Assembly (NCBI GenBank): GCA_017995775.1
Contig: JAGOIF010000006.1
Span: 1-50,717 of the forward strand
Source of the DNA: Aliarcobacter sp.
Lineage (GTDB): Bacteria; Campylobacterota; Campylobacteria; Campylobacterales; Arcobacteraceae
Length of the DNA stretch: 50,717 nt
Direction: 5' to 3'
In this document: positions 1,521-5,298 of the stretch, in pieces
How positions within the stretch are numbered: the stretch's first letter is position 1
Layout of the letters: every line of letters starts with the position of its first letter
The notes under the pieces: generated by a model
Seen by the model: only the letters and a program-made list of their open reading frames with translations
Database searches by the model: none
Told to the model about the DNA's origin: nothing
Translations under genes and position numbers: made by a program

Positions 1521-1943
1521 TTATAGTAAAGAATCTATTTTTATCTTATACTCTAAATCTTTACCAGCTAATGGGTGATTAAAATCAACAGTAACACTAG
1601 AAGATGAAATTTCTTTTACAATTAATTGAATTGGCTGGTCATTTGAATCTTCTGCTTGAATTTGCATCCCAACAACAAGATTTTCTATTTCATCAAATTG
1701 TTCTTTTGGAAAAACTTGAATACCAGCTGGATCATATTCTCCATAAGCTTCAGATGCAGGAACTAAAATATCTGCTGCTTCTCCTGCTTTCATATTTATA
1801 ATTCTTTTTTCAAGACCTGCAATTACTTGTCCAGTTCCAAATGAAAATTCAAATGGTTTATTGCTTCTACTTCCATCAACAACAACTCCATCAACTTTTA
1901 CTTCAAACAATATTTTTACAGTTTGATTAATCTGTATAGGCAT
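1521..1943 (-). CDS. FKBP-type peptidyl-prolyl cis-trans isomerase, SlyD-like, without metal-binding tail
   Basis: Cytosolic prolyl isomerase / chaperone of the SlyD subgroup (140 residues). No signal peptide. The pattern FSFGTGQVIAGLEKRIINMK matches the FKBP core, followed by the SlyD-type insert-in-flap region (AYGEYDPAGIQVFPKEQFDE) and the conserved closing motif VDFNHPLAGKDLEYKIKI. SlyD proteins use the inserted domain to bind unfolded chains. Unlike the second SlyD in this window (36969-37553), it ends directly after the FKBP core and has no Cys/His-rich nickel-binding tail. It is a monocistronic-looking minus-strand gene with AAGGGAAAAT just before the ATG. Confidence 0.88.
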   Translation of the reverse strand: MPIQINQTVKILFEVKVDGVVVDGSRSNKPFEFSFGTGQVIAGLEKRIINMKAGEAADILVPASEAYGEYDPAGIQVFPKEQFDEIENLVVGMQIQAEDSNDQPIQLIVKEISSSSVTVDFNHPLAGKDLEYKIKIDSLL

Positions 1944-2006
1944 ATTTTCCCTTATTTTTATTTTCTTAACTATATAGTATTAAAGATAAAATATCAAAAA
2001 ACTATT

Positions 2007-2585
2007 TTAGAATAAAGTACCAGAAGTTTTTACATCTTCTTGTAACTCACCCAATGCTTTTAATTTGAATGAAATCCTATGTTCATCAGATTTTCCAAAC
2101 TTTTTTATTTTATCTATGTGGGCTTTTGTTCCATAACCTTTGTGTTTTTCAAAATCATAATTTGGATATTTTTCACTTATTTCATACATATAATTATCAC
2201 GGCTTACTTTTGCCAAAATTGAAGCAGCGCTTACTTCTTGTACTGTGGCATCTGCTTTTATTAAACATTTTAAATCAGCTATTTTAAAAGTAGTGTTTCC
2301 ATCCATCAAAAAATCATCTGAGAATTCTTTTAAATTATCCATAATTTCTATTATTGAATTTCTTAGACAAAAACTAAGCCCTTTTTCATCAATGGTTTTT
2401 GCATTTGTAAACACAATATGATATTTAGATTTATTTTTTATTTCATCAAAAAGTTTATTTCTTTTTTTTTCACTCAAAATCTTTGAATCATTTAATCCAT
2501 CAATTTTTTCCAATAATATAACACCAGCAACCACTAAAGGTCCAGCAATTGGTCCTCGTCCTGCTTCATCTATTCCACATAACAT
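2007..2585 (-). CDS. rnhB: Ribonuclease HII
   Basis: Cleaves the RNA strand of RNA/DNA hybrids and removes single ribonucleotides from DNA. The protein (192 residues) opens with CGIDEAGRGPIAGPLVVAGV, carrying the first catalytic Asp-Glu pair at residues 6-7. The middle block IKADATVQEVSAASILAKVSRD carries a further catalytic Asp and the AASI(L/I)AKV(S/T)RD signature, and KHKGYGTKAHIDKIKKFG is the conserved C-terminal block. The length is normal for the family. Transcribed leftwards away from clpB; its -10 lies at 2610-2615. Confidence 0.97.
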   Translation of the reverse strand: MLCGIDEAGRGPIAGPLVVAGVILLEKIDGLNDSKILSEKKRNKLFDEIKNKSKYHIVFTNAKTIDEKGLSFCLRNSIIEIMDNLKEFSDDFLMDGNTTFKIADLKCLIKADATVQEVSAASILAKVSRDNYMYEISEKYPNYDFEKHKGYGTKAHIDKIKKFGKSDEHRISFKLKALGELQEDVKTSGTLF

Positions 2586-2609
2586 ATAAAAATCCTTTAT
2601 AAAACGTCG

Positions 2610-2615
2610 ATTATA
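2610..2615 (-). promoter_or_regulatory. -10 element of rnhB
   Basis: TATAAT on the minus strand (ATTATA on plus), about 24 nt upstream of the rnhB ATG. AAAGGA lies between them as ribosome-binding site. No strong -35. Confidence 0.55.
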
Positions 2616-2655
2616 TCATTTTGTAAAACAAATTAATATAATTATTTATTTAAAT

Positions 2656-2717
2656 ACTTGACAAAGGAAAACTCAAGTGATATAATTTTATTAGCAGTTA
2701 AACTTAAGGAGTGCTAA
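2656..2717 (+). promoter_or_regulatory. clpB promoter with HAIR-like (HspR) and CIRCE (HrcA) operators
   Basis: Perfect sigma70 promoter: TTGACA 2658-2663, 17-bp spacer, TATAAT 2681-2686. A HAIR-like site, CTTGACA-N7-ACTCAAG (2657-2677), overlaps the -35 and spacer. Its right half matches the HspR consensus CTTGAGT-N7-ACTCAAG fully and its left half 5 of 7. A CIRCE element, TTAGCAGTT-N9-GAGTGCTAA (2691-2717), starts at the expected transcription start. Its right half is perfect and its left 7 of 9. It contains the ribosome-binding site AAGGAG and ends one base before the ATG. Two repressors could therefore block RNA polymerase binding and early transcription of clpB. Confidence 0.85.
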
Positions 2718-2718
2718 T

Positions 2719-5298
2719 ATGAGTAATAATATTTTTGAAAAAATGACAAATCAAATGCATGAGACAGTAGATTCAAGTGTTGCCCTTGCATTACATAATA
2801 AAAATCAAGAAGTAGAAGTTATACATCTACTTTGGGCTTTATTAACAAACACAAATTCTGTATTAAATCAATTGTTAAATAAAATGAATGTTAATAAAGC
2901 TGCACTTGAATTAGAAGCAAAATCAAATGCAGCAAAACTACCAAGTGTGAGTAGTGTTACAAAAGAGAGTATAAAACTTTCAAGAAATTTACTTGAAAGT
3001 TTACAAAAAGCCGAAGGTATAATGGCTAGTAATGGAGATAAGTTCATAGCCATTGATGCATGGCTTATTGCAAACTTTGATTTACCAATCATAAAAGAAG
3101 TTCTAGGTAAATACATAGATTTAAGAGAAGCTAAAAAAGAATTAGAAGCTATGAGAGCTGGAAATACAATAGATAGTGCAAGTGCAGATGAAAATCTTGA
3201 AGCATTAGGAAAGTATGGAATAGATTTAAATAAAAAAGCAATTGATGGTGAACTAGATCCCGTTATTGGAAGAGATGAGCAAATCAGTAGAATGATGCAA
3301 ATCTTAATTAGAAAAACAAAAAACAATCCTATATTAATAGGAGAACCAGGAACTGGAAAAACTGCAATCGCTGAAGGACTAGCTCAAAGAATAGTAAATA
3401 AAGAAGTACCAACATCTTTACTAAATAAAAGAGTAATTACACTTGATATGGGTGCAATGATTGCAGGTGCTAAATATAGAGGTGAGTTTGAAGATAGATT
3501 AAAATCAGTTATTGATGAAGTTAAAAAAGCTGGAAATATAATACTATTTATTGATGAGATTCATACAATCATAGGAGCAGGGGCAAGTGAAGGTTCTATG
3601 GATGCTGCAAACATTCTAAAACCTAGTTTAGCACGTGGAGAGTTACATACTATTGGAGCAACTACACTTAAAGAGTATAGAAAGTATTTTGAAAAAGATA
3701 CAGCTATGCAAAGAAGATTCCAACCAATTAAAGTTGATGAGCCAAGTGTTAATGAAGCTTTACAAATATTAAGAGGAATAAAAGGTAAACTAGAAACTCA
3801 CCATAATGTAACTATAAATGATTCAGCACTAGTTGCAGCTGCTAAATTATCAAATAGATATATAACAGATAGATTTTTACCTGATAAAGCAATTGACCTA
3901 ATAGATGAAGCAGCAGCAGAACTTAAAATGCAAATTGAAAGTGAACCAACAGTTTTATCAGTAATTAAAAGAGAGATTCAAACATTAAATGTTGAAAAAG
4001 AAGCTCTTAAAATGGAAAAAACTAAGAAAAATGATGAAAGAATAGCTCAAATAGAAAAAGAATTAGCAGATAAAAATGAAGAAAAACAAAATCTTGAATC
4101 TAGATTTGATAATGAAAAACAAACATTTAACGCAGCAAGTGAATTAAAAATAAAAATTGATGAACTTAAAACAAAAGCAAACATAGCAAAAAGAGAATCA
4201 AACTTTGAAAAAGCTGCACAAATAGAGTATGGAGAAATACCAGCATTAGAAGCTAAAATCAAAGAAAACACAGAAAAATGGGACAGAATGCAAAAAGAGG
4301 GAACTCTTTTAAAAAATAGCGTTGATGAAGAAGCAATCGCTAGTATTGTAAGCAGATGGACAGGAATTCCTGTTAATAAAATGATGGATAGTGAAAAACA
4401 AAAAGTTTTAATGGTAGAAGAAGTTTTAAGAAAAGATGTAATTGGACAAGATGAAGCATTAAAAGCAATAAGTAGGGCAATTAAAAGAAATAAAGCAGGG
4501 CTTAGTGAAGTAAATAGACCAATAGGTTCATTTTTATTTTTAGGACCAACGGGAGTTGGAAAAACAGAAAGTGCAAAAACTTTAGCAAAATTCTTATTTG
4601 ATGATCCAAAATCACTTATTAGATTTGATATGAGTGAATATATGGAAAAACATGCAGTTTCAAGACTTGTAGGTGCTGCTCCTGGATATGTGGGATATGA
4701 AGAAGGTGGACAATTAACAGAGGCTGTTAGAAGAAAACCATACAGTGTTATATTATTTGATGAGGTTGAAAAAGCACATCCTGATGTATTTAATATTTTA
4801 TTGCAAGTTTTAGATGATGGAAGGTTAACTGATAATAAAGGTATTACAGTAGATTTTAAAAATACTATCATTATATTAACATCAAATATCGGAAGTGCAA
4901 GAATTATTGAAATAAGCGATAAAGAAGAAAGAAGAAAAGCAGTTTTAGATGAATTAAAATCTCATTTTAGACCTGAATTCTTAAATAGACTTGATGATAT
5001 AGTGATATTTGAGCAATTAGGATTACAAGCAATTACAAATATTGTAGATATTTTATTTGATAATATTAAGAAAAAACTTGAAGAAAGAGATATAAAAATT
5101 TCTTTAACTTCTAATGCAAAAGAGTATATTGCTAAAATTGGATTTGATCCTGTATATGGTGCAAGACCCTTAAAACGTGCTATTTATGAGATAGTTGAAG
5201 ATAAATTAGCTGATTTAATACTAGAAGATAAAATAGCTGAGGGAAGTAGTATTGAATTTGATGTTGTAAATAATGAAGTAATAGTAAATTTAATATAA
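2719..5298 (+). CDS. clpB: Chaperone ClpB (AAA+ disaggregase)
   Basis: Hsp104-type hexameric ATPase that, with DnaK, extracts polypeptides from aggregates. It has 859 residues, normal for ClpB. Order seen: N-terminal Clp repeat domain (1-145); first AAA+ module with Walker A GEPGTGKT near residue 208 and Walker [11 protein letters not shown]; a long middle coiled coil (about 400-525, [20 protein letters not shown]), the ClpB hallmark; second AAA+ module with Walker A GPTGVGKT near 610 and Walker [16 protein letters not shown]-terminal D2-small domain ([16 protein letters not shown]). It has no ClpP-binding loop as in ClpA. The start is fixed by AAGGAG upstream. Heat-shock control by HspR- and HrcA-like repressors is suggested by the operators in front. 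Confidence 0.98.

Follow-up and report, generated by a model that had tools for sequence, protein, structure and literature searches.

A 50,717-nt stretch of DNA from Aliarcobacter sp. (contig JAGOIF010000006.1; the whole stretch is referred to here as the window) carries clpB behind a promoter on which two heat-shock operators are stacked. An HspR-associated inverted repeat (HAIR) covers the -35 element and the spacer, and a controlling inverted repeat of chaperone expression (CIRCE) covers the predicted transcription start and the ribosome-binding site. The arrangement is best read as a sigma-70-type clpB promoter that is probably repressed at normal temperature by HspR and HrcA on adjacent operators, a reading to which we assign a probability of roughly 0.87.

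Organization of the clpB promoter

All of the elements lie on the forward strand. The promoter, TTGACA-17-TATAAT, matches consensus at 12/12 positions (2658–2686). Its -35 hexamer TTGACA (2658–2663) lies within the left arm of the HAIR-like, predicted HspR operator CTTGACA-AAGGAAA-ACTCAAG (2657–2677), and its TG-extended -10, TGATATAAT (2678–2686, with TATAAT at 2681–2686 after a 17-nt spacer), matches the extended -10 consensus of Campylobacter jejuni, TGxTATAAT (PMC3656092). Judged from the -10 position, transcription would start at 2692–2694. The predicted HrcA operator, TTAGCAGTT-AAACTTAAG-GAGTGCTAA with an N9 spacer, occupies 2691–2717; it agrees with the CIRCE consensus TTAGCACTC-N9-GAGTGCTAA at 16/18 positions, both mismatches falling in the left arm. 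Inside it lies the ribosome-binding site AAGGAG (2706–2711), and AGGAG is likewise inside the CIRCE in 62/71 relatives that encode HspR. The clpB gene follows, with its ATG at 2719 (2719–5298), and codes for an 859-residue disaggregase that matches TIGR03346 with E=0 and 1172 bits, slightly under the curated cut-off of 1232. The sequence-only reading had put the promoter, the HAIR-like repeat, the CIRCE and the ribosome-binding site at positions that proved exact to the base, including a 16/18 CIRCE that spans both the ribosome-binding site and the point where transcription is predicted to start.

The HAIR and the CIRCE at clpB are not due to chance. Against the strict consensus CTTGAGT-N7-ACTCAAG the HAIR scores 12/14, with a right arm of 7/7. 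Among 20,000 Markov sequences of local composition and equal length, with the HAIR scored as 14/14 if the left arm reads CTTGASW, none attains either the observed HAIR score or a CIRCE of 16/18. In zero-mismatch searches for TTGACA-N17-TATAAT, for the HAIR and for the CIRCE, the clpB site is each time the sole case in the window. The strict TTGACA is itself unusual for the class, since ~89% of C. jejuni promoters combine a periodic A/T pattern with an extended -10 and have no clear -35 (PMC3656092).

Repressors and operators in the same genome

Both repressors invoked by the sequence-only reading are encoded in the genome from which the window comes (2.5 Mb in 209 contigs, 95% complete). The hspR gene lies downstream of cbpA and matches NF047375 above its cut-off. 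The hrcA gene (L030, 688–1491) sits between its own CIRCE and grpE and codes for a divergent HrcA of 267 residues, which matches NF003033 with E=6e-70 and, over its N-terminal part, TIGR00331 with E=1.5e-22. HrcA was undetected when the genome was searched with the Pfam profiles PF01628 (HrcA) and PF03444 (HrcA DNA-binding domain), so Pfam-based surveys would wrongly score it as absent. The two top PF03444 matches were rejected as HrcA; by eye they resemble Rrf2-type regulators.

Operators are distributed unevenly over this genome. HAIR and CIRCE occur together at clpB, at hrcA-grpE-dnaK and at an operon for a cyclic-oligonucleotide-based antiphage signaling system (CBASS), CIRCE alone at groES and at a gene judged by eye to be htpG, and HAIR alone at cbpA-hspR. 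The groES gene has its own TTGACA-17-TAAAAT promoter plus a CIRCE, with HAIR absent, and the htpG-like gene has its CIRCE upstream of a likely promoter (L032 1430–1640 and L029 800–1100 for the groES and htpG-like sites). Because sites of all three kinds coexist, the HspR and HrcA regulons appear to overlap rather than to be nested.

Loss of HspR and loss of the HAIR

Comparison of 84 Arcobacteraceae clpB upstream regions provides a natural experiment. HspR was detected in 72 of the genomes; 10 are without HspR, and 2 more HspR-less genomes are also without the CIRCE. With the right HAIR arm scored as kept at a match of at least 6/7, it is kept in 70/72 genomes with HspR, in the form ACTCAAG or ACTAAAG, and in 0/10 without (Fisher test, 3e-11, kinship among the genomes being ignored). 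The HspR-less genomes fall at several separate places in the clpB tree. The left arm CTTGACA is invariant in 71/71 promoters of genomes with HspR, conservation is lower in the N7 spacer of the HAIR (0.01 to 1.4 bits at each position), and TTGACA is still found 17–18 nt from a -10 in 9/10 HspR-less promoters that keep the CIRCE. The repeat thus has conserved arms and a free spacer and tracks the presence of HspR, and these patterns support the view that HspR is its probable reader and that the left arm is a genuine -35. Since HspR-less promoters keep TTGACA and lose the right arm, the left arm appears to be held by its role as -35 and the right arm by HspR. The proposal that one sequence doubles as -35 and operator is supported by this comparison, and both palindromes are kept upstream of clpB in relatives.

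These data bear directly on whether HrcA alone controls clpB, with the HAIR-like repeat no more than a -35 joined to a palindrome that is accidental or structural. The two mismatches in the left arm are fully accounted for by TTGACA, and groES in the same genome does have TTGACA and CIRCE without a HAIR. However, the loss of the right arm from all 10 HspR-less promoters that keep the CIRCE, and the HAIR that cbpA-hspR itself carries, make this explanation very unlikely.

The CIRCE shows the complementary behavior. It matches at 14–17/18 positions in all 72 genomes with HspR and at 15–18/18 in the 10 without, mostly 17–18/18 in the latter. Control by HspR alone, with an inherited and hardly used CIRCE, would follow the published case of C. 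jejuni clpB and would suit the two mismatches that weaken the left CIRCE arm, but it leaves this retention unexplained and is just as improbable. G037, in which neither HrcA nor HspR was detected, also speaks against it, having neither operator at clpB; in G036, likewise HspR-less, both operators are gone as well. The repeat might instead act mainly as an RNA thermometer, a hairpin that hides the ribosome-binding site, as the AAGGAG within it and a predicted 6-bp stem would allow. That is scarcely probable, for its fold stability is not above that of shuffled sequences (z -0.3 to 1.3), and in the HspR-less genomes (G036–G038 and G043–G051; L159–L185) the CIRCE is mostly near-perfect and clear of the ribosome-binding site, so that it is better conserved where it does not overlap that site.

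Several observations weigh against joint control by HspR and HrcA. Four genomes are exceptions to the correspondence between repressors and operators (G042, G051, G069 and G036). G042 has an HspR match and no HAIR at clpB; that match, on a 4.3-kb contig of a 7%-contaminated bin, may come from foreign DNA. G051 is without a detected HspR and retains a HAIR at hrcA, and G036 encodes HrcA and is without a CIRCE at clpB. Absence of HspR was scored from profile searches of partly draft genomes and may reflect incompleteness. The HrcA of the studied genome reaches 236 bits in NF003033, just under the curated cut-off of 248. Finally, for the Arcobacteraceae, binding of HspR and HrcA and their effects on expression are read from sequence.

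Proposed mechanism and comparison with known systems

Binding, repression, cooperativity and heat induction at clpB are what we infer from the arrangement of these sites. HspR on the HAIR would cover the -35 and the spacer and block entry of RNA polymerase, and HrcA on the CIRCE would cover the start site and block initiation or escape. The gap between HAIR and CIRCE is 12–14 bp in all 71 promoters of genomes with HspR, so the two repressors may be in contact and may bind with cooperativity. The analogy to C. jejuni makes such cooperativity plausible: its HspR and HrcA recognize HAIR-like and CIRCE-like sites, show a direct interaction and are cooperative on the groESL promoter Pgro (PMC7464140). 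Heat or unfolded protein would then inactivate one or both repressors, and clpB would be induced jointly with hrcA-grpE-dnaK, which carries the same promoter; C. jejuni HrcA is presented in one report as an intrinsic thermosensor (PMC8533110).

The closest known relatives of this arrangement are C. jejuni Pgro and Phrc, the promoters of groESL and hrcA-grpE-dnaK, which share with it the repressors, the operator types, a CIRCE over the start and neighboring operators (PMC7464140). However, where C. jejuni HspR and HrcA regulate a promoter together, the HspR sites are found upstream of its core (PMC7464140), whereas Aliarcobacter clpB has a single HAIR that contains the -35 and stands 12–14 bp from the CIRCE. 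The clpB promoter is therefore not of the C. jejuni and H. pylori type, with an HspR site upstream of and off the core promoter, as its HAIR covers both -35 and spacer. Unlike C. jejuni Pgro, Aliarcobacter groES has the CIRCE only, and clpB has both operators. An HspR operator that overlaps the core promoter is found at C. jejuni clpB and cbpA, which are controlled by HspR only; HrcA control is unreported there, and Aliarcobacter clpB has an added CIRCE (PMC7464140, PMC12131804). Helicobacter pylori has the same repressor pair with overlapping regulons, but at its groE and hrcA promoters the HspR sites are far upstream, and its HspR regulon includes the whole HrcA regulon (PMC6102357, PMC7464140). 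The Aliarcobacter operators suggest partly overlapping regulons in place of the nested ones of C. jejuni and H. pylori (PMC7464140). In Streptomyces and Bifidobacterium clpB is also an HspR target with a HAIR, although no CIRCE is listed for it (PMC6102357, PMC9004370). A literature search that covered few subscription journals found no description of a clpB design with a HAIR containing the -35 plus a CIRCE, and no paper on HspR in Arcobacter.

The clpB promoter is a compact, family-wide case of one sequence that is both promoter element and repressor site. Lineages that have lost HspR are natural knockouts in which mostly only the HspR half is lost, and the promoter offers a clean system for asking why a single chaperone gene would be placed under two repressors.

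A copy of the module in front of a CBASS operon

The third composite site of the genome (L064, 1608–1669; G000:C20) faces a CBASS cyclase gene (1896–3098), followed by an E2 gene. The locus has a divergent phospholipase effector, with RnlA/RnlB toxin-antitoxin genes and integrases nearby. The module is on a plasmid and is also present in NZ_MK715471.1, just upstream of 105,545. One plasmid record is identical over the cyclase and the promoter, other plasmid matches being distant; the studied genome is thus placed in or close to Aliarcobacter cryaerophilus. Cases seen are limited to the studied genome and this record, possibly of the same strain, and close-peptide patterns for relatives of the cyclase found none in the genome contigs. 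Tentatively, the HspR/HrcA module may have been recruited beyond the chaperone genes, on a large A. cryaerophilus plasmid, to drive the CBASS operon; the heat-shock repressors would then keep phage defense in check until heat or protein damage relieves the block. The site may instead feed a short transcript, because a 227-nt leader precedes the cyclase. The same literature search found no paper treating both HrcA and CBASS; the copy suggests that protein stress and anti-phage defense may be linked, an idea open to test.

Distribution of the module

A looser HAIR, -10 and CIRCE pattern is present in 83/104 Arcobacteraceae genomes, and the reversed pattern in none. In a sample of the class, the composite pattern is found in 37/43 Arcobacteraceae and in 23/354 other members. 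The sequence-only reading held the compact arrangement on clpB to be worth documenting; the stacked design is real, but it is a rule of the family, shared by hrcA-grpE-dnaK, and not peculiar to this clpB. Across all GTDB contigs the strict composite pattern occurs at 25 places, 22 of which are Arcobacteraceae clpB promoters: 21 have clpB by tblastn, and L227, identical in promoter sequence to the clpB promoter of G018, is counted with them. The others are a duplicate at a contig end (L214), an orphan (L222) and an imperfect site (L218). L218, from an 'Acidobacteria' bin, was set aside, as its right CIRCE arm is improper and neither clpB nor hrcA was found on it. A search of viral contigs found no composite site. 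Among 16 composite sites retrieved from outside the Arcobacteraceae, 15 are upstream of an hrcA homologue and 1 is upstream of an htpG-like start. Because sites outside the family mostly precede hrcA and strict places are mostly at clpB, the module looks, in this sample, older at hrcA and special to the Arcobacteraceae at clpB.

Composite sites also occur in other settings. In another family of the class, L252 (G456:C13:39084) has the composite in front of a gene whose start resembles that of htpG. An orphan HAIR, promoter and CIRCE lies at ~1176–1237 of L130 (G099:C11:60876) and again at 4875 of L222; it is followed by a leader of ~250 nt and then a 45-residue open reading frame, adjoining a formate dehydrogenase-like gene.
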